Below, piece by piece: positions 18,552 through 62,316 of a stretch of DNA of 64,000 nucleotides. Under the pieces are notes generated by a model. That model saw only the letters and a program-made list of their open reading frames with translations. It did no database searches and had not been told where the DNA came from. The translations under genes were made by a program, and so were the position numbers. Source of the stretch: Camellia lanceoleosa (lineage: Eukaryota > Streptophyta > Magnoliopsida > Ericales > Theaceae); the NCBI GenBank assembly GCA_025200525.1, contig CM045761.1:97378182-97442181 (forward strand), read 5' to 3'. How positions within the stretch are numbered: position 1 is the stretch's first letter; the number at the start of each line of letters is the position of its first letter.

Positions 18552-18579
18552 TTGATGTAAAATTTTTGCATTTTGTGTA

Positions 18580-18997: not shown

Positions 18998-19004
18998 GGC
19001 TCTA

Positions 19005-19215: not shown

Positions 19216-19339
19216 AGATAACTGAGAGATAAGATCGCTGTCATTTAAGGCGTAGTCTATTGATCGCAAATTTACATCATGTGTGAAAAGGACAAAAACA
19301 ACCATGTGTGTAGATTTCCAAAAAGAATATACAGCAATT

Positions 19340-24849: not shown

Positions 24850-24952
24850 GAATCTAGTTGTGACCATCCACCTTGGTGGGTAGTAGGTAGGGATTATCAG
24901 GAGTGGGTCTCCGGCAACAATGACCACAGTTGCCAGACGGAGCAAAAAGGCT

Positions 24953-24972
24953 TCCCACAGACGGCGCCAACT
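24953..24972 (-). other. Tat element primer-binding region
   Basis: In element sense, GTTGGCGCCGTCTGTGGGAA follows the 5' LTR after six bases (TCATCA). GGCGCCGTCTGTGGGAA is a widely seen leader motif of plant Ty3/gypsy elements of this group. Confidence 0.8.
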
Positions 24973-24977
24973 GATGA

Positions 24978-37216: not shown

Positions 37217-37800
37217 CACTACAGGGAAAAGCATATTCTAAATTTCTTGATAAAAAAATTTGGTCATTGAAAAGTATACTTTCAAAAACCAAAAAAAAGA
37301 TTAGTAGCCAAAGTAAAGCTTTTTGGCGACTAAACAATTTTAGTAGCCAAAAGTCTACAATTGGCGACCAAAACTAAGTTTGGTCACTGATTATATGGGT
37401 TTTAGTGACAAAAAAAATTTTAGTAGATCAAAGTAAAGCTTTTTGGCAACTAAAAAATTTAGTAGCCAAAAGTCTACAATTGACGACTAAAAATAAGTTT
37501 TGTCACTGATTATATGGATTTTACCGATAAAAAAATTTTAGTAGTCAAAAGTAAAGCTTTTTGGTGACTAAAAAAATTTTAGTAGCCAAAGTGTATAATT
37601 AAATAAGTTTAGTAGCCAAAAGTGGTTATTTTTAGCGGAGAACTAAAATCCTAAGGGAATTAAATTTTTGACGACCCAAATTTTGGTAAGTGCATCTTCA
37701 AATCCGATTTTAGTTAAGTTTTTAGCAACTAAAAACAATTATTAGTATAGAATTGGCAACCAAAAAATATTTTTAGTCGCCAAAAGTGGTCTTTTTTTAT
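37217..37800. repeat. Nested CACTACAGGG-type repeat, three units of about 120 bp
   Basis: Starts CACTACAGGGAAAAG, itself like a CACTA terminus, then carries three degenerate units with TTTTAGTAGCCAAAGT, AAGCTTTTTGG and ACAATTGGCGAC, near 37300, 37420 and 37541. Its subterminal motif (TAGTAGCCAAAA) differs from the host element, so it is probably a truncated second CACTA inserted in the first. Confidence 0.55.
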
Positions 37801-37921
37801 TTTACTATTAAATAGTTTATTTTACATAAATTATGTTCAATAAAATAATTATGTTTATACATATACTTTTATATTAATATAGATGTATGTACTATATAAA
37901 TAATATATGTTGCATATATAA

Positions 37922-38015
37922 TCATATGGTGCTATAGAGGTGTAGTGGGAAGAGTGTGGTGTATAAGGTTTATGGTGCGGGAGGTTGGCGGTTCAAGTCT
38001 CTGCAAGAGCGGATC
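37922..38015 (+). repeat. Possible tRNA-derived (SINE-like) segment
   Basis: GGTTCAAGTCT (37990-38000) is an exact match to the pol III B-box consensus. Upstream GAGGTGTAGTGGGAAGAG is only weakly like an A box. The T-stem does not pair, so it is not a working tRNA. It could be the head of a SINE inside the CACTA element. Confidence 0.3.
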
Positions 38016-38499
38016 AAATTGTTCTACAACGAATTATCGTCACGAATGACACTTGATAGCGTCACGAATAGTGCCTACCATGACATTAAAGTGTCACTGA
38101 AATGTTTTAGTCTTGATGGTGTAATGACACTTAAAAGTGTCACTAACTCTTTTTTTAATGGAGCTTGATAGTGCCACAAATAATATTTACCATGACATTA
38201 AAATGTCATTGAAAGTTTTTAGCCATGATGGTGCAGTGGCACTTGCAAGTATCTACCGTGGCACCGATAGAAGTGGCACTTGTTCAAAATGCCACAAGAC
38301 CAAAAAATGTCATTAGAAGAATAGTTTTGTGACACTTTCAAATGTCACTAAACTAAGAAAATGTTGTAGTGGTTATATCATTAATGTATGTCATTTTTTA
38401 TGTTGTGAGATTTTAAATTATATTTTATAGCACTCTGTACTTCTTGTTATAATGGAATTATATTTGACTATTTAATTATCTTGATTTTTGATTCTTTTT

Positions 38500-40932: not shown

Positions 40933-41345
40933 CACTACAACAAAATTGAGTTTTTACGGCTCCACATTAACGACATACAGTAAATGCAACCTGTGGTTTC
41001 TCACTTTTACGACTTTACTTTATTTGCATGTCGTAAATAATTTCCCAACCATGACGTGTGTATTACGTATGCCGTGAATGCTAATAACGAATATTTTTTT
41101 ACGGCTTGCAATGTTAGCCGTAAATAATAAAACTTTTTACAGCATGCATATGGCATGTCGTTAATGCATCAACTATACACGACACGTGAACACTAGCCAT
41201 TAAAAATATTGAATATTTCATGACGCACAAAAAAATCAACCGTTAAAAATTACATTTTTTACGATGCACAAAAAATCAACTGTATAAAATATTATACTTT
41301 TCACGACACGCAATTACTGTCGTGAAAGGTACCATACAAAAAAAA
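40933..41345. repeat. CACTA left subterminal repeat zone
   Basis: Units such as TTTTTACGGCTTGC, CATGTCGTTAATGC, ACGACACG and GACGCACAAAAAAATCAAC alternate in both orientations; these would be transposase-binding repeats. The zone ends near ACTGTCGTGAAAGGTACC. Confidence 0.85.
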
Positions 41346-41399
41346 AAAAAAACATAGCGCCTAAATAAAAATTTTGAGCGCCAAACACTAAAATATAAA

Positions 41400-42000
41400 A
41401 AAAAAAAAAAAAAACACTTTGCACAATGGATCTCTGGTTCCCAGTTTTTTTTAAGAGAGAAAAAGGGCGAAACGAAGGAGAAAGAAAGAGGAGAGAATAT
41501 AAAGAGGAGTGGGTTCGATCTATCTGTGCAATCGACACGAAGCTCATTGATTGTTCTCCGGAGTAGATTGATTATTATTGTTGAAGATCGCACATCACCG
41601 ATTCGGCATAAGATCGAAATCGAATCGACTTTCTTATTATGAGGTTTGACAAGCTGTGTTGCCCTTCCAATCTCAGCCGCTTCGTCGCTGGCCTTCTCGT
41701 CTTCATTCTTTATCATTGCTTTCAATTAATCTCCAATTTTTTGATTCCTATACATCCCTAATTCTTCATCTTCTTCTTGTTCTTCTTCATCATCAAACCT
41801 TTGCTTTGCTTACATTCCTTTTTTTCCTTTTTCCTTTATGGATCTCAAAGATTCAATCTCCAATAACTTTCTCGATTGAAGAGATGAAAGGAGCAAAACC
41901 GAGAAGAGATGGAGAAGAGAGAGGGTTCGAATGAGCAAAACCGCAGGAGAAGGGTTTCAATCTCTCTCGATATTGCATTCTCCACCCAATGTTTTCTTTG
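41400..42000 (+). other. Captured leader-like segment with short ORF, unidentified
   Basis: A GA-rich leader (41450-41500) followed by ATG at 41640 opening a 43-codon frame (MRFDKLCCPSNLSRFVAGLL, then a hydrophobic stretch) ending TAA at 41769-41771. It looks like the 5' exon of a membrane-anchored protein gene, directly after the CACTA subterminal repeats. I cannot name the gene. Confidence 0.3.
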
Positions 42001-42002
42001 AC

Positions 42003-42492
42003 GCTATGTTTGGTAACTTAGGAGAGAAAAGAAAAGAAATGATTACTTAAGTAATAAGAGAAAAGAAAAGAAAAGAAATGATTGTAATTTCTCTCCTTTT
42101 TGTTTGGATAAGTAAGAAATAAAAGAAAAGAAATGATTGTGATTTCTCTCCTTCTTGTTTGGTTAGATTTCATTAAGAGAAAAGAAAAGAAATTATTTTA
42201 TGTTATATTACCAAAATAACCTTTTTATATTTTCAATCATTTTATTTCTTTTATTTTTATAGGCGTAAAATTGGTATTATGAAAATATAAACATTTGTGG
42301 GTTTCTTTTCTCTCCCAATCTCTCCACTTTTGGGAAGATTGAAAATAAGGGTTATGAGAGAAATGAGTTTCTCTCCATTTCTTTCTATTTCTCTCCATTT
42401 CTCTCCACTTAAGATAACCAAACAAGGAAGAGAAATACATTTCCCTCTATTTCTTTTCTTTTCTCTCCAAATCCCTCAATCCAAACACAGTG
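42003..42492. mobile_element. MITE with TATGTTTGG ends, GAGAAAAGAAAAGAAAT repeats
   Basis: GCTATGTTTGGT and AGGAGAGAAAAGAAAAGAAAT at the left are mirrored by ATTTCTTTTCTTTTCTCTCC and CCAAACACAGTG at the right. Several direct copies of the GAGAAAAGAAAAGAAAT block lie on the left side. Confidence 0.75.
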
Positions 42493-45400
42493 TGAATTCG
42501 AAGGTTTGTATTCTGACTTTGATTAATTAGATGTTTTGTTGTTTTTGTGAAGTGAAGGTGCACTCTCTGCTTAATGTTTTGATGTTCATTTTTGGGATTC
42601 TTCGTTGAAATGAATGATATGAGTTTTCTGAGGATTCACATTAGGGCTATGGTTCTCAGATCTTTCGGAGCATTTTTATTTTCTGATACTTGTTTGAGTT
42701 TGAGATTTCTTGATGCTTTAGGATGATTAGTTGTTTTTGAATGGGACGCTTGTGTGCCTCATTTTTTCTATTGGGTTTATCACTATGTTGGCATTTTGTG
42801 AATGATTTGTTGGGTATATGCGGTGAAGATTTAATCTGGAGAGTTTCAGGGTTGTGATTTTTAAATTTAGGTTTTAAATGGCCCCTTCTCTGTAAATTTT
42901 TAACTGTTGGCATATTTGGGATTGTGTAAAGTTTGGGTTTTTGTTTGTGTCCATGTATCGATGAGAAATGGAACCCTTATCTAACCTATTCTTAGAATAA
43001 AGTCATGCATCATGTTGCATGAGACATCCAACCACATGATTGGCTTGCACTTTCAAGTTTCAATAGTTTTTATTTTCTCCTTATGACCTTCATGGGTTTT
43101 GAGATGGCCTGAACCATTGAGCTGTGTCTAATTTTCCAAAAGCAATAGACTAATGGAAATTGCTTATGGCAAATTGAGATTGAAGAAAAATGGCACTTTT
43201 AGTTTGTAGAATAAGAAATGTAGGAAATCAGAAAATGAGATTTCATTATTTAATAAAAAAATTAGGTATTAAATCTTGTAAAAAAATTATTTGTAAATTT
43301 TGATTTTAGTTTTTTTTTTTTTTTTTTTGTTCCAGGTGTGATTAGATAATGATGATTGAAGGCCATTGGGCCCAATGGATCTTCATAAGGTAATAATATC
43401 AATTAATCACCAATAATATCAAACTAATTTTTTTAAAAAAATTTTTTAGTGACTTTTGTGATCTTGAATTTCTATATTGCTTCTTTGTATCATTTTTCTG
43501 ATCACAATCAAAATGGAACAGAATATAAGTACTTATTTCGTTTGGTTTGTTTTTTTTTTTTTTCTCATTTGACAATGCCATTGCCTAATAAAAAGATCAA
43601 TTAGTAGAATATGTAGAGAGAAAAAAAAGTGCAATGATGTGAGTAATTTTTTAAATTTTTTGGATACATAACAGTGAATTACTCATTTTGGCTAGTTTAA
43701 TACATTTTAACTAGAAGGACATGGGATACATTGTGTGTTAGGTGGGGTTTCTTCAAGCGTTGTTTGGACTTATACTTGCATTTCTTTTCTTGCATCTTGA
43801 TCTGATAGTGGTGATTGTTGTGAGTTTTACACCAGTTTTCTATGCATTCGGGTAACATTAATTAAGCTCAATTGTATTGTTGTAGCTTGGGGACTACTCA
43901 ACTACTGGTCTGTTTATTTTGGATTGGAACATCATACAAGAACTACTTGTTTTTCTATACTCTAAATTGAGAATTTTTAGTTTGTTTGAATTTTAGGGCA
44001 TTCTTTGGGAAAAGTCTGATGTAACAAGGGAAAGCTACAAATTACAAGAATTATCAGAATATCACCTTATGAGGCAAACTACAAGATAAAGTTGTACCTT
44101 ACTTTCTCTGTTAAGAGTTAATGAATTGGAGATTATTTTTCTTGAAGGGTGATTATGTTGATTATATTGTCTTTTATTTATATAGGAATGCAAACAAATG
44201 GAAAGGGGTAGTACTATGAGTTATTCAAAAATACCAGATTGGGGAATCCCATAATTCTCGATTTTCAGGTTTGTGCTGTTTTGCATGATATGTTTTGCTT
44301 CTATTAATTATAATTTATATAAAGGAAACAAGGTGTTTATATGAGCTTAGTTTGTTTTCCTTATTTGATGAATACCAATATACTCATAGATGGACATTTC
44401 TCATAGTTCACATGGTTAGTTTTGTTTTTTTGTTTAATTAATGACTTTTGTGTGTCTGTATCTATATCATTGATTTTTTTTTTTTGGGGGTGCAATATAT
44501 CATTGATTTCATGTGATAAGATTAGTTTTTTTTTGACATATATATATATATATATTGTAATTCAGATTCTCTCATCAGGCCCAATCTTATGATTATATTG
44601 TCAGTGTTGGTTTGGAGAGAAAAAAAAGGATTTTGGTTCTTTACTTTGTTTTGATAATCTTTCAATCCACTTACGATTGATGTCATTCCTTTTAGGCATC
44701 TTGGAATTTATTCTTAGTGGTGGAAAATGTATTTATACCAAGAATTGGAACAATTTGAGATCAAAGCTTAAAAAGCAAGTACTGACTTATTCAAATGTAT
44801 GCTTCATCTTATGTTTTGATATTGCTATGCCTTGCTTCAAGGCAGCCCATTTGTTATTCTCTCTAAAAATTTTCTCTCCCTTTTCCTCTAAAAGCTAGAG
44901 TTCTATCTTTCCCTCTTAATGCTTAGATGGAGTTCATTATACTATTGTGCCAAAATATAATTAAAGAGATACTTGTTTTGAAAATATTTTACATTGCTTT
45001 GATATTGCTTCATCTAGTCGGATTACATTGAGGGTGGGTATAATTTTTTAGTATCTTCATCTTTTTTAGTGTTTTGAATGTAAAATATTTTTTTTTTCTT
45101 GATGTGCTTTAAGGGCCTCCAATTGCGGGAGCTTTACTATTCTTTTAATTCTTTGTTCTCAATGAATTGAATGTAAAGTATTTCTACCTAGCTTTGCTAA
45201 TCTTGAAGTGCACCCTCATTGTGATTTCATGTATTAAATATCTAAATGTCTCATGGGTGAAAACCAGGTAAAGAGCATTGTTGAGAGATAAAACAGATAA
45301 TCACACAACTTGCTTTGTAGGTATGTTTTTCATAATTTAATTTTCAAATCACTAAGCACTTGACTTAATATATTTGTTGAAACAAACTACTGTTACTGTG

Positions 45401-46492
45401 TTGCTCCTGAGTTGGATGTTGCTTGTGTTGAGTCTTTTCCTTGGGTTTGACCTTGCAGTTTGCTGCCTTGCTTCACCTTGATTGTTGAAAGTTGAACCGG
45501 TTTGGTCCCAATCATCTGTGGGTGATGGTTTGGTCCCAAGATTTTCATTTGTTATTAAAAATAATTAAAATGCAGCATGTTCCTAATACAGATTTGCATC
45601 TATGCATCCATCCAATTCAACTTGGTTTGTTTTGTACCTAAGAAACAAAATCTAAGACAAAAAAACACAACCATAAATGATTAATATTATACATATAAGA
45701 TTAAAATCTGATGATAGTTGCAGTTGTTGCTGCTGTTGCTTGTATAATGCTCATACTTCAGGGTCGTTTGCCTATTTGTCCTCTTATGATTAGGCTTCTT
45801 AAATACGAATCGATATTCTATAGCTATCTTCACTTTATATACCAATTGAAATTGATCATTGTTTTGAGACAAGAAGAAAGGGTACCATAAACTTGATATT
45901 CCCAAACTTCATCATTTTTCATTTTCCTTCTTCTAGTTAAGGAAAAAGTTACTTTTCTCTTGGTGATTATTATGCTAATTCTTTCACTTGAACCTTTGTT
46001 GTAGATCTCAAAATCATATGAATTCTTATTATAGCACAGGATTATTGTTTGAATGCATGCATGGCTTCAAATCCTAAAATTCATGAACTCTTATCAATTA
46101 ATTAAATATTTATAATTTTGGTTTAAAACTTACATAATGATATTCCCAAAGTGACAGTTGAATCTAAGGATGAGACTCCAATTTCATTTTGAGGGGATGC
46201 ATTGATATTTTATCATTTTTTTTAACAAATATAAGTTCGCCTTTAAGGTCTTGTGGATTTCTGGAATTTGTTAGTTCCACAATTTTTGTTTTTTAAATTT
46301 GTTTTGTGTCTTTTATTTATTAGCACCTATGTCTGGTTGTGCCGTTTTAGTGGTTTTTTTGATTGGTGGGTTTGTTGAATTTCGTGTTTCCTTGATTTGG
46401 TTCGAGTGTTTGGATGAAGTGTGATGGATACGATTTTCATAACAAAAAATCTGCTCTCTTCCTCTTGCCCCCACCCAGCTGCTGCTTCTTCT

Positions 46493-46524
<32 letters not shown>

Positions 46525-47215
46525 TCATTTGTCTCTCTGTGCTTCTGCTTCTTTTACCAGACCAGGTTAAAGCTTTTCATCCTCTTCACTTTATTGCCTT
46601 GCTTTTTCTTTTTTCTTTTTTTCTTTTCCTACTTCGATAATTGTTGTTTTGGAAACTTGGATGTTCATATTATATATATATTTGTTTGTTTAATGTTAGT
46701 ATTTTAATGTTGGATGCTCTATTTTTTGGTTTTTGAAATTCTTTAAATTTTTGCATAGTCCATTTCCAATCCTCGCCTATACTTTTACTCAAAATTATGC
46801 TTTTATATATCATTTTGAATTTCTATATTGGTGTGTAAGCTAAAATCAAGACACTGAAGTACATAACTAGAAGAGCAAACGAAGCCTTTTTTTAAAATAT
46901 TAAATTTAAATTTTGTTCATTAATTGATATTTGTGAGGAGCAAATAAACTATCTTCTAAAATCACAAATCAGAGTAGTGGGATTCATGTAAACAGTAACA
47001 CTCTGAACGTACTCTGTAGAAAATGCCAGACTTCTGACATTTTGTACCTGAATTTAAGAATTGTGCAATAAAATGCCATTCCTGTTTGCTTCTTTTACTT
47101 TATTTTTAGACTGCTTTCCTGTGCTGTACTATTTGCCTTTCTGAATTGGTACCATGGTGGTGGTCAACGTGAGTGATTTTGATGTACATTCTTACTGACC
47201 TATGCAAAATGTACA
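42493..47215. other. CACTA interior, intron-like T-rich DNA
   Basis: T-rich sequence resembling plant introns with a few exon-like windows (for example the segment ending CTTCATAAG|GTAATA near 43390). No protein family recognised. (TA)n at 44535-44556; poly-T near 43310-43329. Confidence 0.4.
46496..46524. repeat. (CT)n microsatellite
   Basis: About 14 CT units next to a CTTCTT-rich stretch. Confidence 0.95.
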
Positions 47216-47678
47216 TCATTGTCGAGCATTCCTCATGGTAAATGGTATTGTAAATATTGCCAGAACATGTTCCAAAGGGAGAAGTTTGTGGAGCATAATG
47301 CTAATGCTGTAGCAGCTAGAAGAGTTTTAGGAGTTGATCTTATTGAATAGATAGCGAAGCGCTGCATTTGAATTGTCAAAAATTCAGAAGATGCTGAGGT
47401 CATTGCATGTGTTTTGTGCAGGTACTGGTTACGCTATGCAAGATTAATTGTCAATCCTTATATTTTCTTCATGATTTTTATTGTTGTTCGTTCTGAGTTT
47501 GACATTGTGCTTATATTAAACTTTACCTTTAGTTAATATCATCCTTTTTTTATTTTTTTTAAATGTTCTTCATTTGTTGGTTTATCTAGAGGTTGATGTT
47601 TTTCAATCTGCTTTATGCAGAGGTTATTAGTTTAGAAAATCTGGATTTGGTCCACACACAATAATAGTTTGTGATCAG
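47216..47678 (+). pseudogene. PHD-finger protein fragment captured in the CACTA element
   Basis: Two exons with intron. 47216-47421 reads SIPHGKWYCKYCQNMFQREK, FVEHNANAVAARRVLGVDLI, then AKRCI and VACVLC-like ends. 47621-47678 continues KSGFGPHTIIVCDQ and ends at CAG|GTACGC. This matches the linked PHD region of large plant PHD and acetyltransferase-like chromatin proteins. Two stops in exon 1 (TAG at 47348, TGA about 30 bases later) each fit one C-to-T change of CAG and CGA; another TAG lies in exon 2. Only part of the gene is present, so it is a captured fragment, not a gene. Confidence 0.8.
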
Positions 47679-49880
47679 GTACGCTCTGTTCTTTATGTTA
47701 GTTCCTTCTTTTTTTTAATTTATTTATTTTTTCATCCGAGTTACAAAGTGATTTGAATCATAGTTGTCAAATTATGAATCGAAATTTCCTTTTTGTTGAA
47801 TTGTGAATTGATTTGGGTTGCAAACCGTAAAGATTCTGTTTTAATTTTTGATACATAAAAATATATCTAAACATATAGATATTAAAGATACACTATAAAT
47901 AAATGAATTGCTTCTTTTAAATGATGGACATGAGTGTAATAGGGAAGATGCTTCTGTCTATGTTTAGTTTCATATATTACAAATAACAATCTTTTTAAAT
48001 TAATGGCGTCTGAAATCTAACTCCTTTTTGACCATGCTTTTGCTACTAAGTATAGAATGAAGAGTGTTCCTGTGGTCGATCTAGGAGAAAGGAAGATTGA
48101 TGTCATCATCACAATCTGCTGTTATTCACATGTTGGAGAAATGCGCCGGTCTTTTACTAGTCTAGTGTTATTTAATTTTTCTTGTGCAGTTGGATGAGCA
48201 CTCATCTTGAAGGAATTTGTTTCCATGTTTAAAGAAGGTTCCTTCTGAGGTAGGTACCTATGACCTCCAAATTCCTTTTTTTTTTTTTTTGTTCATCTCA
48301 TTGTGAAATTTTGTGGTATAGATTATGGAGAAACTTGTGGGCCATTCACAACACTGGATGTTCTTGCTAAGAACTATTTTTCTATTTAGTTCACTATCTA
48401 TAGAAAATCCTAAATGGTTGAGAAGTGCTGTGTTGGGTTGTGTTTAATTTGATCTTTTTCTTATGATCAGTAACAATTAATTTGATCTGCTTCTTCCTGC
48501 AGGCTTCACAATGAATTTTTTTTTTTTTTTGTTATGTCCCCTTTTGCTCTCTGCTGTCTATCAAGTCTGTAGACATTTTTTTGGACATCATCACATACTT
48601 AGCTATGTGGCATGTAATCTAGAGCAACTAGATGCAGTAAGTTCATTCTTTATAGGATATGTGCAACGTGTCTAGGATTGCTTGAGAGAATGTAGATTTG
48701 TCCATATGGCCTGAGAATAATTTTTGAGAATTGATATTCACTCTACTTTAAACTTCTTGCACTCCAATTTTTGTCTTTTAGCCTTTCACAAGGGGAGTGT
48801 GAGAAGCTAGATGTGGAATGTTAACAATATCACTCTTAATTTCTAGACACAAGAATCTGGCTACCTATTAATACAAAAGCTGATCACTGCTCAATAGTTG
48901 TTCAATATATCTCCAAAACCATTTTTTTTTTTTGTCATTGATTCAACTTTTAAGCATCACAGTTCCTCAACCCGAGTACCCTAGCTTACAAAAGATCACA
49001 AAGGCACAAGGGAGAAAGGATAAATGCACAAAATTTTTTCATAGAAGAGACATGAAGAGTGGGCCCACATGTGGATCCTACATTTTGTCTCTCTTCTGTT
49101 CTGTGCAAAAATTCTGTTCTGTGCATGTAGCACAAATGGGCACAAGGTCACTATTCATGGGTACTGATCACATTGCCCATGACAACCCTCAAACAGGCAC
49201 TACAACCTTGTGTTCTCAGCCACAAAAGCCAATCAAATTCAGCCAGTGTACCTCACTCATTCTACATCAATTGTAAACTTGCAATTACTCTTTAAGGTTT
49301 TAGTGAACTTTAACTAGTACTCGACTCTTAACACACACAATGCACGCTGGCAATGTCTCTTGGTAGCTGTACCAGACAACTTTTAATTTTCTATATTATC
49401 TTAGAGTGAGTGTTGAATTTTAGTAGAAAAACAATATCATTGCCATTTGTTTTTCTAGATTATCCTCTTCAGGTGTTGTTGGAAACTGTCTCTCAACTCT
49501 TCTAGTTGATATGATTTTATTCTCTTCCTAGAAAACTTCTATTTTGCTGTTGGTGGAACTAAAGTTTTCTTGATTCACCATCACAGCAACACCTAGCTAA
49601 GTCAACTAATTTGTTAATGTTATTCCATTTTTTTTTAATTTATATTAAGAGGCAAGTGCTGAATTGTGTGTTAGTGATGTAAATCAAAATCATAATATCT
49701 CAGTAAGCTACATTTGGTGTTGAAATTCAAAAAAGAAAAGAAAAAACATATCATAGTATATAATAAGGGTTTACCCATGTTTGATTGCTTAGAAAATTGG
49801 CCAAATTCTTTTGAATTATGCTTATTATAGTAGTAATATATATATACCTTTGTTTGGGTTATGAGAAAATGGGCTGAAAT
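47679..49880. other. CACTA interior without recognised gene
   Basis: T-rich intron-like DNA. A short exon-like piece at 48191-48249 lies between TGCAG and GTAGGT and may be a further damaged exon of the PHD source gene. A 114-codon open frame at 48932-49276 has no recognisable domain. Confidence 0.4.
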
Positions 49881-50060
49881 TGTAAGTTTTGTGAATACAA
49901 CTGTATATTAGTCTTGAATTGATTGAACAAAGAATACATACATCATTTATATAGAGTACCACTAATTCCTAATCCTACATGAATACATTACTGAAATATA
50001 TAGAAGTCTAATAGATATAGGATACTTATTCCTAATCCTAGGAGAACACATATTCTCACA
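49881..50060 (-). repeat. Copia LTR (3' in element sense)
   Basis: 180 bases, identical in length to 54663-54842. The polypurine tract in element sense is GAGCAGAGG immediately before it. Confidence 0.95.
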
Positions 50061-50073
50061 CCTCTGCTCAAAC

Positions 50074-53000
50074 TCAAGGTGTTTTAGCAGAAAATACTGA
50101 GGGTTTGTCAAGAAAAAATTGAAATCGAGTAGTGGTGTGAGTCTTAGTGAAGAAGTCAGCAAGTTGCAGAGCTAAAAAGACAAAAGGAAGTGAGATAAAG
50201 CCAGACTGCAAATGTTGACGGACGAAGTGACAATCAATCTCAATATGCTTTGTCCGTTCATGGAAGACAGTGTTATGAGCAATTTGAATAGCACTTCGGT
50301 TGTTACAATAGAGAGAGGTCGGGGAAGATTGAGGGACGCCCAACTCAGATAAGAGATTATGAAGCTAGACAATTTCAGTAGTAGCATGAGCCATAGCACG
50401 ATACTCAGCTTCGGCAGTAAAACGAGCAACAACAGTTTGTTTCTTGCTTTTCCAAGAAATTAGGGAATCGCCAAGAAACATACAGAAACCAGAAGTAGAT
50501 TTATGATCATTAACATCACTAGCCCAATCAGCATCAGTATAAGCCACCAAGTCTGAGGAAGAAGTAGAAGAGAACAGCAAGCCATGAAAGATATTACTGC
50601 GAAGATAGCGAAGAATTCGAAGCAAAGCAGCCCAATGTGTAGAGCGAGGGGCAGAAACAAATTGACTAATCACATGGACATCATAGGCAAGATTAGGACG
50701 AGTAATTGTCAGATAGACTAAGCAACCCACAAGCTCGCGATATAACGTAGGATCATCTAGAGGAACCCCATCAGTAGTGTTGAGCTTTACATTAAGCTCA
50801 ATGGTATCAGACAGCTTAGTGTCAGTAAGTCTGGCATGATGGATAACCTCGTTAGCATACTTAGCCTGAGACAGAAAGTAACCCTTGGGAGAAGAAGCCA
50901 CCTCAATGCCAAGAAAATACCGCAATGGTCCCAAATCCTTTATTTCGAAGGTGCGGAAGAGATGCTGCTTAACCTCAGAGATAGCAGAAGAGTCAGAGCC
51001 AGTGATGATCATATCATCTACATATAGTAAGAGAGCAACAAAACCAGCCGAGGTATATCTTAGAAATAAAGCAGAGTCGGAAGTAGAAGGATGAAACCTA
51101 AGCTCGGTAACAGCAGTTTGAAAGTGATCATACCAAGCACGAGGAGATTGTTTCAGACCATATAGAGCACGCCGAAGACGACAGACTTGGCCAGAGGAAT
51201 GGTGAAGACCAGGAGGAGGACGCATGTAAACCTCCTCAGTGAGATGGCCATTAAGAAAAGCATTCTTAACATCCATTTGAAAAAGAGGCCAAGAACGAAC
51301 AACAGCGACAGAAATCAAAGTACGGACAATAGTCATCTTGGCAACAGGAGCAAATGTCTCCTCATAATCAATACCATACTCCTGGGAGAAACCTTTGGCC
51401 ACCAGATGAGCTTTGTAGCGCTCAAGAGAACCATGAGAATGAGTTTTGACTTTGTAGACCCATTTGCAACCAACTAGATTCTTACCAGCAGGTAAAGAAA
51501 CCAACTCCCAAGTACTAGTTTTCTGTCGAGCAAACAACTCATCCTCCATATCTTGAACCCAATGAGGATCCTGACAGGCCTCCTTGTAAGACTGAGGTTC
51601 TGCAAAAGAGTGAATAGCAAACAAAAAGGTACGATAGGAAGCAGAAAAACAAGTATTAGACCAACCCAACCTTTTTGGAGGATGATGCGCTCGAGGAGGA
51701 TATCGGTGTGCAGCAGGATCAGAGTCGTCAGAAGCAGGGGGATCAGCAGCAGGGGTAGAGACAACTAGTAGAGGAGGAGCCTTGCGACGAGAATAAACTA
51801 ACAACGGAGGAGAAAAAGGAGGAGAAGGCGAATGAGGAGAAGTAGTCAGAGGTGAAGCAGAAGGAGACGATGGAATAAGCTCAAGAGGAACTGTGGAGAT
51901 GTACTCATCAGATGGGACCTAAGAAGGAAATGGATCAATATGAACCAAATCCTCTTTGGAAACTGGGGCGGTGAGAGGAGGAAGCTGAAAGTAAGATAGA
52001 CGTTCGAGAAAGGCAACATGGCGGGAGACATAAAGGTGACAAGAAACAGGGTCATAACAGCGATAACCTTTCTGAGTGAGGCTATATCCCAAAAAAAACA
52101 CATAGGACAGATCGGACACTAAATTTAGTCCTATCTTTACGAGGTAAAAGGACAAAACACGCAGACCCAAACACACGAAGGAGGGAGTAATTAGGAAGTT
52201 GAGAAAAGAGAGCCTCATAAGGAGACCGACCAGAAAAAAGGGGGTAGGCATACAGTTGAGAAGAAAAGCAGTAGTAAGAACTGCCTCACCCCAAAACGGA
52301 GCTGGAACGGAGGCAGAGAGAAGAAGAGACCTAGCTATCTCAAAAAGATGACGATGTTTATGCTCAGCTCGGCCATTTTGGGCAGGTGTATCAGTACAAG
52401 AAGTTTGGTGAATGGTACCCAAGTTGGCCAAATATTCACAGAATTCAGTTTTAAAGTATTCCCCACCCAAGTTAGACCGCAACAATTTAATAGTAGATCC
52501 AAACTGTGTAGTGACCATAGACTGAAAAGTACGATATATCTGATAGAAGTCAGACTTATGAGTCATAAGATAAACCCACGTGTAACGGGAGCAATCATCA
52601 ACAAAAGACACATAGTATACTGAACCCCCTTTAGTAAGAATAAAAGAGGGTCCCCAGACATCAGTATGCACAAGAGAGAAAGGAGAAACAGAAATAAACG
52701 TACTTTTATTAAAAGGTAAAGCTGACATTTAGCAAGTTTACACCCCCGACATTCATCAATTTGACTAGGAGAAACTTCACCCAACAATCCTGACTGAGCT
52801 AAAGACCGTAAGCGGTCAACAGACAAATGATCAAGACGAGAATGCCATAAGTAAAACTGACTCGATTGAGAATCTAATTGAAATGAGGAAAGTGCAGCTG
52901 GAGAGGTGGATAAGGAGAGATGCAAGCTTTCAACCACATAGAGATCTCCAATTCTACGGCTGGTCCCAATCTGCTTCTTGGACACTCGATCCTACACACA

Positions 53001-53560
53001 ACAGACAGAAGAGGAAAATATAACATCAAAACCAGACGCATCGAGTTGACTGATAAATAACAAGCTGATAGATAACTGAGGAACATAAAAAACAGAAAGA
53101 ATAGCAACAGCAGACATGGCAGAGGGTAAGACAGACCCAACAGATAAAACAGACATACCAGATCCATTAGCAGTATTAATAGTAATAGAAACGGGTAGGG
53201 GAATACAATTTTGTAGTAAGAAAAGGTGAGGAGTCATATGATGAGAGGCACCCGAATAAAAAATCCTAACAAAAGAAGGGATACCTGAAGAGGATCTAAG
53301 CAAACCTGAATGAAGAGAGGTAAGAGCAGAGGCAGATGGGGATGACTGAGAGGTGGATAGGATATGCTGAAGTTGTGCAACCTGAGCACTCAGGAAAGCC
53401 AAGTCAGGATTGGGAGCCGGAGTAAATGCAGTGTAAGCAGTAGGAGGTCGGAAAGTACCCGAAGTAGGACCGCAGAACTGTGTCTGAGAAGACGGAGCAA
53501 GTTGACGTCCTTTTTTGGGACAATTGTTCTTCCAATGACCCTCTGATGGCAGAAAGCACA
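50074..53560 (-). pseudogene. Copia pol: protease, integrase, RT, RNase H
   Basis: Protease near 53250 reads FYSGASHHMT; the catalytic aspartate of DSG is tyrosine. GAG-pre-integrase at 52730-52900 has LWHSRLDHLSVDRLRSL and CRGCKLAKC. Integrase at 51919-52728 has LVHTDVWGP, LRSNLGGEYF (second catalytic Asp changed to Asn) and QNGRAEHKHRH, with a frame change downstream. RT at 50365-51804 is open: WVYKVKTHSHGSLERYKA, FQMDVKNAFLNGHL, LYGLKQSPRAWY and YVDDMIITGSD (near 51010). RNase H has AYTDADWAS, STSGFC and AEAEYRAMA; a TAG near 50368 stands where W is usual (EIVWL). Catalytic losses make protein supply in cis unlikely. Confidence 0.93.
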
Positions 53561-54296
53561 CTTATCTGGCCCTAATGGTCCTCTCTTGGGTTTCACAGTG
53601 GCTTGAAGCTGATGAGAAGGAGGGGTCAATAACAAGGGCGGCTTGGCAGGAGCCAAGAACATAGAAGGAGGCAAAGTCTAACTGGTCGTCTTAAGATGGG
53701 TTTCCTCGGAGAGGAGTTCACGAACAATAGCATCCTCAGAGGGAAGAGGAGATCGGTGAAGGATGCCATCTCGAATAGCCTCATGCTGAGGGGAGAGAGC
53801 TGTTAAGAACTGGACTAACGACCTTTTTCCCAAAACTCAATATAAGCGTCTAGTATCTTGAGACTAGGTGGTTCCATAAGAGCCAATTGATCCCAGAGAC
53901 CTGTCATTTCAACATAAAAGTCCTGAATAGTTTGATCCCACTGACGAGCACTCTGAATAGTTGTTTCCAACTCATACCGCTTGGCAAAGTTGGACTGCTG
54001 ATAAACATCGAGTAAATAATCCCACACTTCCTTGGCAGTACTGTACTTGGAAAACATCATTCCAATACGGTCATCCACAGAGTTATGAAACTAGGTTAGA
54101 ACTTGGGTATTATCACAATCCCAAGTGTCACAGGAAGACAGATATCCTTCTACCTTCGGGTCCGAGGGACGAGGAGTAGAACCAGAAACATAGCCCTATT
54201 TTTTTGACCAAGAAGAAAATTCTTCATAACATTGGCCCAATAGGCATAATTGCCACCAATGAGTTTACATTTAATGGCTTGAATTTTAGGGTCCAT
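53561..54296 (-). pseudogene. Copia gag
   Basis: Starts MDPKIQAIKCKLIGGNYAYW at 54296. It continues, after a break, as MDDRIGMMFSKYSTAKEVWD (53815-54078) with SNFAKRYELE and FYVEMTGLWDQL, the usual copia gag helices. The zinc knuckle (CAFCHQ ... GHWKNNCPKKG, 53500-53580) is split by a frameshift. Stops between the blocks show it is not translated as one protein. Confidence 0.88.
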
Positions 54297-54650
54297 TATA
54301 AAGCAAAGTTATAGAATAGTTGGGTCAAAGTATAATAAACGAAACACTGAAGAACCTAACTGAGATGTGAGAACCTGAAGTTGACACACGTGAACCAGAA
54401 TGAGAGAGAGAAGATGGCGAGTCGAACAGATGAGTCGAATAGTTACAAGGAATCAGATAAATCAGACCCAACTAGATGATCGACGAAGCAAGAAGCTTCG
54501 TCCGACAACCAGGGCAGAGAGAGAGAAATCGCGAACCAGACTGTGCCAAGGAGAAGATTCACGACTGACGATTGATGAAGCAAAGGGCTTCGATCAACAA
54601 TCAGGTTTGAGAGAAGGAGAGAGACCGACGGCGCTAGGGTTTCTCAACCT

Positions 54651-54662
54651 GCTCTGATACCA
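54651..54662 (-). other. Copia primer-binding site
   Basis: In element sense, TGGTATCAGAGC directly abuts the 5' LTR. It is complementary to the 3' end of initiator tRNA-Met, the standard copia primer. Confidence 0.93.
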
Positions 54663-54842
54663 TGTAAGTTTTGTGAATACAACTGTATGTTAGTCTTGAA
54701 TTGATTGAACAAAGAATACATACATCATTTATATAGAGTACCACTAATTCCTAATCCTACATGAATACATTATTGAGATATATAGAAGTCTAATAGATAT
54801 AGGACACTCATTCCTAATCCTAGGAGAACACATATTCTCACA
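54663..54842 (-). repeat. Copia LTR (5' in element sense)
   Basis: 180 bases, direct repeat of 49881-50060; followed on the plus strand by the GAAAT duplication. Confidence 0.95.
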
Positions 54843-54847
54843 GAAAT

Positions 54848-55576
54848 ATGAAAACGCGAACTTGATTATAAGTGGAACTGTTCTATCAAACTTAAGTACT
54901 TAGCTGATTTTGGAACTGAAAAACCTGTAAATGCGTCCCTTGTTTGGCTACTGAGAAAATAGGGAAAACTTAAGGAAGCTTAATTTTGAATGAATGCTAT
55001 GTAGATAATAGAAAGAACACAATTGAGAAGTCAATGCTTTCAAATACAAATTGTTTTCCAAAATTTTAGGACTTACATTTTGTCGGGTACAAATCAATTT
55101 ATGAGTAAATTTGCAGTTTTTTATTTTTTATTTTTTGGGTGATTGCAGTTAATTTGCTAAAACCCTTCGCTTGGTTGCTGAGAAATGGGTGAAATAATAA
55201 AAAACAAATGAGTTGCTGAACTATGAAAAATAGAACTTGACATCAAGTACAACAATTCCATTGAAGTTCACTTGGTTGCAAGAAGATATCTATAAAGAAA
55301 GAAAGACTAGAAGTAGAGGAGAGAAAGAGAGAGAGACAGAGACTGAGAGTATAGGTAACATGGTTGCAACCTTGTGCCTTGTACAGGAGAAATTGTGCCC
55401 ATTCAAGGTAAATGGAAGCTGTTATACGACCTATCTATCTTTCTATGCCTTCTTTCCTTCTGTGTTTATTTTCATTCCCAGGATTCTCTCTCCCCTCCCG
55501 CCCAAGCAAAAAAAATAAAAATAAAAATAAAAATCCAATTTGTTGTTTCTTATTGAATTTCAAGATATTTCTTTTT
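54848..55576. other. CACTA interior between copia and the virus-like locus
   Basis: Contains related phrases CCCTTGTTTGGCTACTGAG (54937) and CCCTTCGCTTGGTTGCTGAG (55164), hinting at local duplication, and a GA-rich leader-like stretch (55290-55350). No gene recognised. Confidence 0.4.
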
Positions 55577-57000
55577 TCATCTTGCAACCTTTTTCTTATC
55601 AAAAAAAGGAATATCAATATTTCCTTTTTCTGACCATTTTGCTTGAGTGTTACCACTGTATTGTTCAAACACTCTTGCTAAAAAGAAGTTGAATTTTGAA
55701 AGTTTGTAAATTTCTAGAACAGTAACTTTCTGCATTTTTTCGAATTTTGCTAATTCTTCGTTGGTAAAAGTTTTTTCATCTCCGATTACATTTCCAAGTC
55801 GAATTGCTTGTAATTCTTCTTGAGATATGCTATCTGTTTCTTGAGATATTTGTTGACTATTATTAATCATCATGAAGATTAGTTCTTCATCTGAACTTTC
55901 TTCATTACTAGAAACTTCATATAAGATTTATTCTTCATCAGAAATTTCTTCTCCATATATTATTTCAAAATCTTGTTCTTCAAGAACTTTGATTATTTTC
56001 TTTGCACTTTTTCTCCTTTTTGGGCATTCGGGTGCATAGTGACCTTCTTCGTTACAGATGTAACATTTACAAATTTTCTTTTTTGAAACACTTGTTGGCT
56101 CTTTTTTCGAATATACTTTTTCTTTTTTGAAAAAGTTTTATTCTTTTTCCAAGGTTTCCATTTATATTTTCTATGTTTTTTGGAAAATCCTTTTCTTTTA
56201 GGAAATGTATTACAATCAATTTTTCAATTTTCTTTTAAAATTTTATCCCAACATTTTTGATCGTATTGTGAGTTGGAAATTTGATTTTTTATTTGTTTTT
56301 TCGCCTTTGCTTCTAGACACCGATCTGCTATCAGTCTTAGAACATAATTAATGCGAAAACCAAGATTATCATATTCTTCCTTTCCCATTTTTTTGAGAAA
56401 ATCAGGATATGTTTTAATACATAACTCATCCCATGGATTAGGGAGTTTATGAAAAAATTGATCTAATCAGGGTTGATTTGCTGGTGGATCAATAAGATAA
56501 TAATATTTTTTAAAAGTTTGAACATAATATTCAAAAAGACAAATATTACATAATTCTAATTTAGTCGAAATATAATTTGCATTTGCTTGCAAATTAGTAT
56601 CTCCTGCAAAACTACATAAATTTTCTTTTATGATTTTTGCAAATTCAGCTAAAATTGTGTCAAGTGTAAGAAAATTTGTTAACAAAGCCGTTTTTTGACT
56701 TTCCAATTTCAGATTTTTCCCACTGTCTTAACCATTGCAACACATCTCCCTGGAGAGTTGTTGCAATATAATCAAGGAAGTTTTCCTTTGACCAGCTATT
56801 TTTATAATTGGTAATAATGATATAGCGACCCCGGTCCTTTCCCATTTGGTGGTTGTATCCGGACTTACGTTCCGTAGATTCTGTTTGTTGTTGTCGTCCT
56901 TTAATTCCTTATTCTTGAGTTATAGGATGTATTGGGCAGGTTTGTTACAAGTTGGTTGGGTTTAGAAACCAAGTGTTGCTGTCTAGAATTTTGGACCTTC

Positions 57001-57289
57001 GCTCGAGCGAGCAGTTTGTCGCTCGAGCGAGCCTTATGTTTTTGGTCCTTCGCTCGAGCCAGGGTTTCTTCACTCGAGCGAGAGATTGCGTCTAGTATAG
57101 ACCTGAGAGCTATATTTGTTGGCTCGAGCGAGCTTTCCTTCGCTCGAGCGAGCATTCTGTCGCTCGAGCGTGCTTTTGGGTTGCAGACCTGAAGCATTGC
57201 ATTCTTGGCTTGAGCGAGACTTTCTTAGCTCGAGCGAGTCATTCTTGTGTCTGGTCGCTCGAGTGACCAATTCTTCACTCGAGCGAGCC
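57001..57289. repeat. Array of eleven GCTCGAGCG-type palindromes
   Basis: CTCGAGCG-type motifs start near 57001, 57021, 57051, 57071, 57121, 57141, 57161, 57207, 57228, 57256 and 57276, most with the fuller CGCTCGAGCGAGC context. They lie just upstream of the LTR TATA box, where enhancer repeats would be expected. Spacing is irregular, in clusters near 20 bases. Confidence 0.92.
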
Positions 57290-57296
57290 TATTGGG

Positions 57297-57304
57297 TATA
57301 AATA
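57297..57304 (+). promoter_or_regulatory. LTR TATA box
   Basis: TATAAATA follows the palindrome array by about ten bases. The downstream CT-rich leader supports a plus-strand promoter, directed against the virus-like reading frame. Confidence 0.6.
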
Positions 57305-59985
57305 CGCAGCAGCGGTTTTTAAAACACTTTTTCACCCTCTTTTTGACTTCAAAACCCTAGTTCCGTCTTTTCTCTCCCTCCACTCACCTTCTCTCTTAGA
57401 TTTCATCTCTTTTTAGGGTGTTTCCACCCTAGGTTCTTTATTAAAAAGGTAGAGTGAGTCGAGAGCTTCGTTTTAATTTGAGAGTTTGGCAGTTTGGAGC
57501 ACTTTGGATTTTGGGTCGTCATCTCCATCTTCTCCATTCGGATTATTTACTTCGAGGTAGGGATTTCCTACTCCATGTTATAGGTTTTGTTCTAAGTTCT
57601 AGTATTTTGATATGTTGGGAGTTATTTGGTAATTTTGGGAAAAACCCTAGTAGTTGAAATAAATTAATTTGTATAATTAATTTAGGGAAAAATGTGGAAT
57701 TGAGTTTAATTCATGGAATTGAGGAATTTAGTGATTTAATGGTGTAGTTGGTTAGTTTAATCACTCACCTATGAAAATGTTAAATTTACATTTGTTGGTA
57801 CATTTATTTCTTGTTTAGAAATAATTGTTTTGGGCTATTGGTGGAGGATAGTCGTGATTGTTGTAGACATTGCATGTGGATTAGGGAAAACTGAAACTAA
57901 TCACATTGGTTAAGTCATTGATTTTGACTATTGAATTAATACAGAAAATACGTGTATTGATTGTGTGTTGCATATGTATTTTGTTTGGGAGGAGATATGG
58001 GATGTACTCCACGGTTTAGGGGAAGATAGGGGATGGACCTTTAAACCGGATTTTGTTTGGGAGGAGATAGGGGATGGACTCCATTAGCATCACTATATGT
58101 GTGCTTATTGATTGAAGTGTTTTTACATGTTGTTGATACAGCACTAAAATGTGTATCAATCGAAAAGTATGGAAGTGTTTTGGTATGAGCCTTAGTCTCA
58201 TTTGTTTTGTTGATATTGGAAGAAATGTTAATGTGATATTTAGTTCACTATTATAGTTTGGCCAGGTTCTGAGCCATATTGATATAAATGGGAATAATGG
58301 AAAGTGAAACGTGTCATAGACATTAAGGTCATGAAACTGTATGTTGGTTAAATGAATAGTTGTGTTAACCATCTATTGAATGCTATTGCTTTATTCAATG
58401 CTTATATTTTGTTTAGTATATTTCTACTGGGCTGTGGCTCACCCTATACGGGAACATCATTTTCAGGTCCAGGTGATATGCTACCTCTAAGGACTTAGCT
58501 TGGAAGGATTTAGACTTTGAAGAATTGTCTTTAGTTAGTTGTTTTTATTTGAGATTACATGTAAGCATTCAAGCCAAGGGCTTAATTTGTAATTGAGTTA
58601 GTACTCATTCTTTTGTGTCCAAGTGTTGGCTTGGAAAGATGTAAACCCTTAGGGCATTGACTTTTGATGTTACATGTGATGTCTTTCAATAAAAGTACTC
58701 TAATGGATAATTTGATGATTTTTCTTATTTTATTAATGCCCGTTAATGTTATATATTATGGGTTTATTTTGAGGGCGTTACAAATGATGGATAAGGATTG
58801 TGCCCAATCATCAATTGCTTGTTTCTGATTCTTAAATGAAACATGAGACAAGTCTAAATAAGTATCATTTTGAGCTATTGGATACTTATGATTATTATCT
58901 TTTCTAGATATTACTGGCTTAGGTGTAGGATTGGAGGTACTTCCAATGTTAGTATCATTTTTAACTTCATTTGTTTGAATAAAGTCAAAATTTTCTCCAT
59001 CTCCCCATGTGCCAAATAATTCGGGATCAATTGGCTCTTCTGCCTTTCTTTTTCCTTTATTTATTTCTGATGAAATATCTTGATCTATTGATTCTTCAAA
59101 TGAGGATGATTGGATATCATCATCATTAGTTGACATATTAATATCATAATTAAAATATTGTAAAAGGGTTTCATTTTTTAGATAAGTTTCTCTTATCTGA
59201 TCTAGTAGCCTATTTCTTTCATCAATACCTAAATCTGGATCTTTATATAATTTTCTCTAATAATCCAATATTTCAACAATATTTTCATATTCAGTCCTAT
59301 TATAGGTATTGGTTTGAAGTACCGTAATATCTTCTGTATCATAAAATAGCCTAGGGATGTAACTATCTCCTGGACTATTCATTCCATCATTGTTTATGAA
59401 GGATATAGTTTCTAATTTTGTCACCAAATTGTTTATTTGGTTTTTTGCTTCTTTATTTAAGTCAATATTTATTATAGAACCCAAATTGTCTATTTTAGAT
59501 TCTATAGACTTAACTTTGACCTCTAGATAATTTTGATTTATTTTTTGATTTTTATCTAATTTAGAAAACCAAAAACACATAATATCAGTAATATTATTTA
59601 AACTAGAACACATACTATTTATATTTGCAGACTCTTTAGTAATATGCAAATTATGATCATATTTATTATTAATATTATTTTTTGTATTTTCAAAGCATAT
59701 TATATCGTCAGAATTAATTGCCATTTTAGATTGTTGTTGGTACCTAAGACCCTCCTAGTGTATTATCTGATGCCTAAAACCTCTCTTTATGATCTTGAAG
59801 ACTTAATTTTGGCCAATAGTCAAAAGATCTTAATGAGTATATGGGCTTTGACATACACCAAGCATATAGGTTTTACAACAACTATAAATGAAACAACTAA
59901 TTATGAAGATATAAAATACAAAAGATACACAAAAAATTTAGACGGAAATTTTTAATTTTTTTTTTATATAACATAAAACACACCA

Positions 59986-59986
59986 T

Positions 59987-60018
<32 letters not shown>

Positions 60019-60019
60019 T
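59986..60019. repeat. (CA)n(TA)n microsatellite
   Basis: About eight CA units followed by eight TA units in the leader of the virus-like locus. Confidence 0.95.
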
Positions 60020-60084
60020 AAAAATTTTTACATAGATAGAAATACTTACGTAGCTTGATCTTGCTTTCAAAAGCTCTTCACCAA

Positions 60085-60096
60085 GCTCTGATACTA
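60085..60096 (-). other. tRNA-Met primer-site-like motif of the virus-like locus
   Basis: On the minus strand TAGTATCAGAGC, one base from the TGGTATCAGAGC consensus, lies about 360 bases upstream of the first coding block. Caulimovirids and many retroelements use this primer. No LTR adjoins it. Confidence 0.55.
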
Positions 60097-60099
60097 ATT

Positions 60100-60960
60100 T
60101 CAAAACAAAAAAGGAAAGGAGCTTTTTACTATTTTTATTATAGAATTATGGTGGAGTTATGGAATAAGGAATTATGATAGAGAAATTAGAGACAAAGAAG
60201 GAAGCTCAAAGATGGAGAGGATATGGAGAGAATTTACATTGCCTTATGCATTGGCTTGAATGCCAATTTATAGAATACATATTGCATATACAAACAAAAA
60301 TAAAAAGTTATGGCATATCTACCTCACGTCTAATTTCTACAACTTTTGACAAAACTTTACAACTTTTTGACAAAGTCTACAAACCTAGGCATAGGCTTAT
60401 TAAATACAAAGACAAAAAAAAGTCATAAATGAGAGACTTCAATTATTTGTCATCTTTATACTACAATTATATACATACACTGTATATATATTTGTCATCA
60501 ATATATAAGAATGCAAAAGGATATCTATATATTTGATAGCCGTCAAAGGTTTGTTAGCAGCCACTTGATGTTGGCAATGAATTTACCTTCAATGTAATAT
60601 ATAGGATTCTTTTAGGTAAAATTACCTATTTACTTCTGGATGGAAACTTATTACATTTTCTTTAATGACATCATAAGAAAATAATTAACATTCTTGAAAG
60701 TTTGGATTGAGATCTTCATCATATGCGTTTTAAACTATTATTTGTTAAATATGTAAATCTTAATTAAGATTATATCTTAAGCATAGGATTTTTTTTATCA
60801 CTCAAACACTCTAGTGCCTCTAAATTTCGTTTGATATGCAGAGTTCAAAAAATTTTGCTATTTTGTTTATGATATTTTTATATTGGTACTTTTGAAGCAA
60901 GAGATGATAATGCATTGCTATTCTTTGCTTCTGCTATTGATGGATTAACTTTGACTCTAG
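60100..60960. other. AT-rich CACTA interior
   Basis: No recognised gene. The last 60 bases end TTTGACTCTAG, an acceptor-like junction before the captured exon at 60961. Confidence 0.4.
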
Positions 60961-61365
60961 GGATGCTACTTTAACATACAAAGTTGAGGCTTTGGAATTG
61001 CAGAGACAACTTAGGCAACTGCAAACTCAGTATGATATGTTCTCTGGTCAGGTTTCAACTTTGATCCAAGTAAGAAGGGCACAAGTTGCGACAACATCTA
61101 GTGTGCTTAAGAATACCAATGTGAGGCTTAAAGATACTGTTAATCAGGTGATTGAGCCAGTATTTTCTACAGATTTGAATCAATTTGTGTTCCAAGGGTG
61201 GGGTGTAGGAAATTTCTATCTATATTCAATTGTGCTTTGTTGTAGATCCCTTTACTAAATTTGATGAAGAGTTTTCTTTTTGTTCTAGCTAAGGTCCAGT
61301 CGAAATTTCTTTATTGATGTTATATTGTTGTGCGTAATTCTTGGGATTGCTGCTTATCTGTACAA
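60961..61365 (+). pseudogene. Captured chimera: augmin-3-like exon fused to SYP7-type syntaxin exons
   Basis: 60961 to about 61105 reads [29 protein letters not shown] and [11 protein letters not shown], like the coiled coil of plant augmin subunit 3 (AUG3). Without a stop or frame change it continues [14 protein letters not shown] (to 61147), the end of the SNARE helix of SYP71-type Qc-SNAREs. After an intron (GT at 61148, AG at 61287-61288), exon 61289-61365 gives LRSSRNFFIDVILLCVILGI and AAYLY, the SYP71 tail anchor. The fusion is seamless in frame and keeps splice sites. Both parent domains are partial and no start codon is evident, so a working product is doubtful. The augmin call is less sure than the SYP7 call. 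Confidence 0.75.
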
Positions 61366-61528
61366 GTAAGTTTCACTCTTTCTCAATGGAAAGTATACAC
61401 TTCATCACATTTTGTTAGTATCTGACATGCTTAACAGACTATAGAAAATAATTTCATGCACAGACACAAAAAACTTTACTTGTAAACTAAACTGAGTGCA
61501 TAGTTAATTTGGTTGGATTTTCATGCAG

Positions 61529-61693
61529 ACAAGAAATGTAACAGGGTTAGTTGTTTTAGCTATTGCCGTGGGTTTATGTGCCTTGACACATACATTGGGC
61601 ACCCTCATCCCTGTGATAGGAGCAAGTGGATTTGCTACAGCTACAGCTGCAACTACAACTGCTATCGGAATTGTTGTCGATAGTTTTAGATAA
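61529..61693 (+). pseudogene. Captured DUF726/TMCO4-like membrane-segment exon
   Basis: After a TGCAG acceptor, 54 codons read TRNVTGLVVLAIAVGLCALT, then HTLGTLIPVIGASGFATATA and a hydrophobic tail, ending TAA at 61691. HTLGTLIPVIGASGFA is characteristic of the glycine/alanine-rich transmembrane part of plant DUF726 (TMCO4-like) proteins. If spliced to the SYP7 exon at 61365, the reading phase would not match, so the two captured pieces do not form one protein in that way. Confidence 0.7.
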
Positions 61694-61964
61694 TCTGTTA
61701 ATAGTTGTCAATATGCTTAGAAAGTTAGATATGTATAGTTTTGGATGGTTTAAACTTTTTGTATAGTTTAGAACTTAAGGATATAGTTTTCAAATGTTTG
61801 GAATGTATAGACAATTATTGAATGTTTATAATTTAATAATATAGTTTATTTTTTATGTTTAAAATAGTATTTTGGTGATTGATTGATGTTTTGTGATGCT
61901 TGTTTGTAATATTTGTTAGATTGTGCAAAATTGGTCAAATAGAACTTGCTGAATTTGAAAAAAA

Positions 61965-62316
61965 AAAATGCATATTCTACGGCAGGCATAATAAGTCGTC
62001 GTATTACATATTTTACGGCGCGCAATCAGTGTCGTTATTTGTCTCACCAATTAATGGCATGCAAAAGTAGTCGTAGAAAAAGTAACGGCACACAAAATCT
62101 GCCGTTAAATAGTTTTTAATGGCGTACTATAGCATGTTGTAGAAAAAGTAACGACGCACAAAATTTGTTGTTAAATAGTTTTCAACGGTGTACAAAGCAT
62201 GTCGTTGAAAGTGAATGGCTTTCCATGACTGGTCATAATATGACGCGTGCTGTACGTCGTAGAAAGGTTTTTACGGCATGCATTGTGCGTCATAAAAATT
62301 CTTTTTTGTTGTAGTG
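61965..62316. repeat. CACTA right subterminal repeat zone
   Basis: Units ACGGC(A/G)(C/G)(A/G)CA, GTCGTAGAAAAAGTAACG and CGTCGTAGAAAGG recur about nine times, matching the family at 40933-41345, and lead into TTTTTTGTTGTAGTG. Confidence 0.88.

Follow-up and report, generated by a model that had tools for sequence, protein, structure and literature searches.

A decayed CACTA element in Camellia lanceoleosa, probably of the Pack-CACTA type, carries a multi-gene exon cassette whose AUG3-SYP71 fusion recurs in Camellia

We analysed a 64,000-nucleotide stretch of the Camellia lanceoleosa genome (hereafter the window) and found in it a locus that is very probably one decayed copy of a Pack-CACTA-type family, which has spread a multi-gene exon cassette in Camellia. 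The core of the cassette is an exon in which AUGMIN subunit 3 (AUG3) sequence runs in frame into sequence of the syntaxin SYP71. The initial annotation had described a single new chimeric locus made from pieces of three host genes. This had to be revised on both counts, as the cassette is common to at least three Camellia species and more pieces contributed to it, namely IDM1-like exons, a piece at 44.7 kb and a coding start at 41.6 kb. The CACTA unit spans 40933-62316 (21.4 kb), and the AUG3, SYP71 and DUF726-like exons lie between its ends:

40933..41330, plus strand: left CACTA end, CACTACAACAAAA terminal inverted repeat with subterminal short repeats
60961..61105, plus strand: AUG3 part of the fusion exon, by homology (frame from 60962)
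61106..61147, plus strand: SYP71 part of the fusion exon, the final 14 residues of the SNARE helix, with the donor GT at 61148
61289..61365, plus strand: SYP71 tail-anchor exon, by homology, with the donor GTAAGT at 61366
61529..61693, plus strand: DUF726-like exon with a stop, in a frame that differs from that of the spliced fusion
61960..62316, minus strand: right CACTA end, subterminal repeats and a complementary terminal repeat ending TTGTTGTAGTG

The fusion exon is an open frame of 62 residues between the AG at 60959-60960 and the donor at 61148 (CAG/GT). Comparison with full-length proteins showed that AUG3 passes into SYP71 in frame and without a stop at 61105/61106, which bears out what had been noticed near 61105. 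The solved chain 9na8_C of AUGMIN subunit 3 matched the frame 60941-61255 over query residues 6-57 (E 2.9e-15). Pfam HAUS-augmin3 matched the same frame with E 2.9e-5, its 24.1 bits being under the curated cut-off of 29.4 bits. The first 48 residues of the fusion frame were identical to the full-length Camellia AUG3 proteins P0166 and P0170 at 37 positions. The AUG3 homology stops at SV, where Camellia AUG3 goes on with NGQ, and the SYP71 homology starts at LKN; the possibility that the whole 60961-61147 frame belongs to one known protein was thus ruled out. At the joint both AUG3 and SYP71 are coding, so it arose at the DNA level rather than through splicing.

The SYP71 helix reported earlier in this exon is of SYP71 origin, but it amounts to the last 14 residues, the upstream part being supplied by AUG3. 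The central layer of the SNARE motif presumably lies upstream of these 14 residues, and the complete motif with its central layer, as in a functional Qc-SNARE of the SYP7 group, is not present in the window fusion. The tail-anchor exon is properly bordered, as first described, by the AG at 61287-61288 and CAA/GTAAGT at 61366. When spliced, the SYP71 tail matched Pfam SNARE slightly under the cut-off (E 9.1e-5), and the full-length syntaxin-71-like protein P0090 of C. sinensis shares 37 of the 39 SYP71-derived residues. The intron position is native to SYP71, with records P0033-P0036 reading through the intron at the same residue.

The third exon follows a CAG at 61526-61528 and translates to TRNVTGLVVLAIAVGLCALTHTLGTLIPVIGASGFATATAATTTAIGIVVDSFR, then a stop. 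Splicing from 61365 to 61529 shifts its frame, so that KQEM followed by a stop would close the spliced fusion. The C. fascicularis protein P0002 finishes with KQQMQQG, as the same SYP71/third-exon joint predicts. Close relatives were found in seven Camellia gene models, all starting at the same TRN residues, and 61529-61693 can therefore be taken as a real exon. Its proposed DUF726/TMCO4-like identity fared less well. DUF726 was not found by Pfam in the window exon itself, and it appeared in two of the seven related Camellia proteins with E 0.09 and 0.12 and in a consensus with E 0.34, all below the cut-off. No full-length DUF726 protein was among the matches returned, one protein search giving the best 120 of 467. 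A DUF726 identity is plausible from these comparisons. The exon was also seen joined to unrelated genes in Camellia models P0062, P0063, P0064, P0135, P0163, P0171 and P0172. A GH127 domain is the partner in P0062, P0064 and P0135 (possibly related loci); P0163 has a reverse transcriptase, P0171 and, weakly, P0063 a P-type ATPase, and P0172 a nucleoporin. This gives the DUF726-like exon the look of a 3' module that recurs in these elements.

A search with the 91-residue spliced fusion gave 38 proteins at E <=0.001 among 42 candidates. The joint is present in at least eight annotated proteins from three Camellia species (one search being the best 120 of 467):

C. sinensis var. sinensis: P0001, P0004
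C. fascicularis: P0002, P0005, P0060
C. lanceoleosa: P0003, P0017, P0038

All fusion matches are from Camellia, and the idea that the fusion is unique to the window was ruled out by these proteins. The breakpoint SV/LKNTN is found in 8/8, and the residue before is S, but F in P0001. Among the other proteins with a readable LKNTN, 121 of 121 have D, E or N before it; the 174 proteins compared include the best 120 of 467 from one search and are not the whole database. Because the eight proteins share this breakpoint, the simplest account would be one fusion event that has since been copied, most simply by transposition. A ninth relative, P0037, contains the AUG3 piece and ends before the joint. 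The tail anchor has FF in three fusion copies and in the Olea SYP71 P0029, FC in 116 proteins and LC in one fusion copy, and FF as a mark of fusion copies is suggestive only. Scanning viral contigs for the fusion turned up 62 pattern matches, none of them a relative. The fusion copies other than that in the window are known from protein models.

Seventeen of the proteins were placed back on the window. Together with the homology searches, this gave five more pieces:

41639..41758, plus strand: captured 5' coding start MRFDKLCCPSNLSRF..., a membrane-protein start resembling that of Datura P0174
44653..44799, plus strand: exon-like piece, also in C. fascicularis P0060 (tblastn E 4.6e-17)
47201..47421, plus strand: IDM1-like exon (increased DNA methylation 1), interrupted by two in-frame stops, 81% to P0040 (E 2.2e-32)
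47621..47678, plus strand: next IDM1-like exon with one in-frame stop, from the mapping of proteins onto the window
60511..60569, plus strand: MQKDIYIFDSRQRFVSSHLM, possibly the first coding exon, which the gene model P0003 of C. lanceoleosa uses

A protein search did not find a donor gene for the 44.7-kb piece, the sole match noticed being Camellia P0060. Pfam gave no IDM1-type domain for the IDM1-like piece, so its identity rests on the full-length relatives. The matches of P0060 follow the order of the window, first 44653-44799, then 47626-47661 (weak by itself, E 0.17) and then 60827-61129. This suggests that the 44.7-kb, IDM1-like and fusion pieces are one unit across later insertions. 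P0003 matches 60502-60570 and, weakly, 55371-55406 (E 0.23). Both P0003 and P0038 match non-coding-looking sequence at 60502-60594 and intron sequence at 61246-61314, indicating that intron-bearing DNA was copied and not a spliced message. P0037 has the IDM1-like exon joined straight to AUG3, in a phase which the window borders would give as well, and P0017 joins the IDM1-like and AUG3 pieces at other points. A longer IDM1-AUG3-SYP71 protein is impossible from the window copy because of the stops in its IDM1-like exons. Two C. sinensis models, P0058 and P0059, combine relatives of the IDM1-like piece with inositol oxygenase, and their IDM1-like part looks nearer to another IDM1-like gene (compare P0050).

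Much of the 21.4-kb element is later nested insertion, and a further CACTA-type element lies upstream:

36453-38371: another CACTA-type element, smaller at 1.9 kb, which starts with the same CACTACAACAAAA and has a clean 3-bp duplication GTT
49881..54842, minus strand: nested copia-type retrotransposon, with 180-base LTRs that are 97% alike and a 5-bp duplication GAAAT
55563-59754, minus strand: nested virus-like frames, themselves interrupted, one with zinc-knuckle-like CNEEGHYAPECP

The copia-type element has an integrase match and is a later insertion, not cargo. Three frames of the virus-like stretch gave no confident Pfam match; by eye the virus-like frames look like remains of an endogenous plant pararetrovirus. 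Two copies of a repeat family, 66-82% alike, were also observed, at 39508-39984 in the left flank of the CACTA element and at 57713-58085 within the virus-like stretch, and both regions carry CTCGAGCG-type short repeats. Elsewhere in the window, 15300-25000 is GC-rich, with minus-strand frames that by eye resemble a Ty3-type retrotransposon (reverse transcriptase, RNase H and integrase). At 2412-2777 a plus-strand frame resembles, again by eye, the last part of a glycine-rich RNA-binding protein.

The exons of the cassette might have been joined by a non-CACTA process, such as a Helitron, a Pack-MULE or segmental rearrangement, with the flanking CACTA ends being unrelated neighbours. A target duplication in CACTA elements is 3 bp according to the part of PMC8978399 used here, and a strict 3-bp duplication was not found at the 40933 and 62316 ends: the 3-bp reading gives GAC on the left and GGA on the right, and 4-bp GGAC, which flanks both ends, alone fits. 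The presence of the element at 36453-38371 just upstream also means that such ends are not rare here. Against this, 21 of the 24 terminal bases match, the first 13 are identical, and subterminal motifs of the ACGAC, GCCGT and CATGC types are similar at both ends (as counted without a shuffle control), with GGAC on both sides. The upstream element has visibly different subterminal repeats, and the right end of the larger element lies just about 620 bases beyond the last captured exon. The right subterminal region also contains a 66-base tandem repeat at 62070-62210. A non-CACTA origin is improbable on this evidence, and the earlier placement of the exons inside a CACTA element, with related ends at 40933 and 62316, holds.

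A different question is whether the fusion has become a functional new gene, that is, a cassette transcribed, spliced (for example through 60511-60569, 60961-61147, 61289-61365 and from 61529 on) into a 66-111 aa coiled-coil and tail-anchored peptide, kept by selection and perhaps interfering with augmin or ER syntaxins. On paper the window copy could encode such a peptide, of 111 aa from the ATG at 60511 or 66 aa from the ATG at 61037. This agrees with the short coiled-coil, SNARE and anchor peptide first envisaged, except that its SNARE piece is without most of the helix, which itself speaks against function. The open fusion frame and intact splice borders in the window favour a gene, as does P0002, with the same exon order and an end through the same SYP71/third-exon joint. 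The SYP71 part is also less changed from the host protein (2/39) than the AUG3 part (11/48), with a Fisher p of 0.03 in one unplanned test. However, the anchor frame is preserved in only three of the eight models with the fusion (P0001, P0002, P0004); three leave it (P0003, P0005, P0038), and the remaining two (P0017, P0060) end before the anchor. In neutral simulations, which began from open sequence and scored stops only, the open frame survived in 77% at 3% divergence and in 30% at 15%, and the open frame alone was rejected as proof of function. In addition, annotated sequence records (ncbi, uniref, nr) are the source of all eight fusion proteins, and the joint is in 0 of 7 ena/lgn records from the search with the spliced fusion. 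Taken together, a selected gene seems very unlikely, and most likely none of the products of the fusion is under selection. An equally unlikely proposal goes further: that a Camellia CACTA family built and spread a stable chimeric small tail-anchored protein (AUG3 coiled coil and SYP71 anchor, some copies with an IDM1-like lead-in), and that its last exon, the DUF726-like one, serves repeatedly as a 3' module spliced onto unrelated genes (nucleoporin, P-type ATPase, GH127 enzyme) where elements land.

We therefore return to the cassette as a decayed copy of a Pack-CACTA-type family. An ancestral CACTA element probably took up stretches of genomic DNA with their introns from several host genes, among them AUG3, SYP71 and genes of the IDM1-like and DUF726-like kinds. 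A joint at the DNA level fell within one exon each of AUG3 and SYP71, and the frame was kept by chance. Hybrid elements are described as arising from neighbouring Pack-CACTAs by aberrant excision in the parts of PMC8616336 and PMC13317346 drawn on here. The cassette would then have multiplied by transposition and reached several Camellia species. No transposase family was found in six-frame read-through Pfam scans of 41330-49881 and 59760-62302 or in three plus-strand frames of 54845-55563. The same scans missed the decayed IDM1-like piece, and a decayed transposase could likewise have gone unnoticed, so the absence of a match is not proof. With none found in it, the element would need transposase in trans, and its terminal and subterminal repeats would be the substrate of that enzyme. 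The capture route, the movement in trans and the copying by transposition are what we infer from these features. The 64-kb window held no empty site, that is, no uninterrupted copy of the joined flanks. The captured splice sites make the cassette a store of exons, and they let gene predictors, and possibly the spliceosome under read-through, join the exons into short chimeric messages.

Our results describe a specific, amplified multi-gene exon-capture cassette in a tea-family genome, common to three Camellia species. Public protein databases list its products under names that are hypothetical or those of host genes (P0003 and P0017 as 'AUGMIN subunit 3'), and the host-gene filing misleads gene-family work. 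The common breakpoint is a clean marker to date and trace one transposon-made fusion across Camellia, and it allows drift of such fusions to be tested directly against retention by selection. In the PMC literature nothing combined AUGMIN and SYP71, and Pack-CACTA and Camellia co-occurred in unrelated passages only. A search on Camellia, CACTA and gene fragments gave none on this subject, judged by the listing, and a looser search gave none on tea among the matches listed.

The element has the terminal inverted repeats beginning CACTA (40933 and 62316) and the closely spaced subterminal short repeats, at both ends, of the CACTA superfamily, and the captured host coding DNA (AUG3, SYP71, IDM1-like) of Pack-CACTA or Pack-TYPE elements. 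As far as the relevant passages of PMC8903248 go, it resembles Arabidopsis Pack-CACTA and plant Pack-TYPE elements in the TIR CACTACAA, in the host coding DNA that the ends enclose, in pieces from several loci per element and in that the stretches scanned yielded no transposase; it differs in that the Camellia target duplication is not strict and the Camellia copies are known at the protein level. Chenopodium CACTA elements, in the passages of PMC8978399 behind our comparison, likewise captured host gene fragments, one of them common to related species. These passages describe transposase domains that are kept, such as were not found in the stretches of the Camellia element that were scanned, and fragments outside the coding region, and they describe no in-frame fusion. 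The closest counterpart is the soybean CACTA element Tgm-Express1, which according to the part of PMC1947982 used here is 5.7 kb long and holds fragments of five unrelated host genes. Both have exons with introns between CACTA-type ends, keep canonical splice sites and allow short chimeric frames. Tgm-Express1 lies within a known gene, and cDNAs contain its captured exons, spliced into a host transcript, whereas the Camellia cassette is known from sequence. The Camellia element, in turn, has 21.4 kb with nested insertions and a fusion common to several species. In conclusion, the cassette is very probably of the Pack-CACTA type, close to Tgm-Express1, and represents a known kind of gene shuffling.
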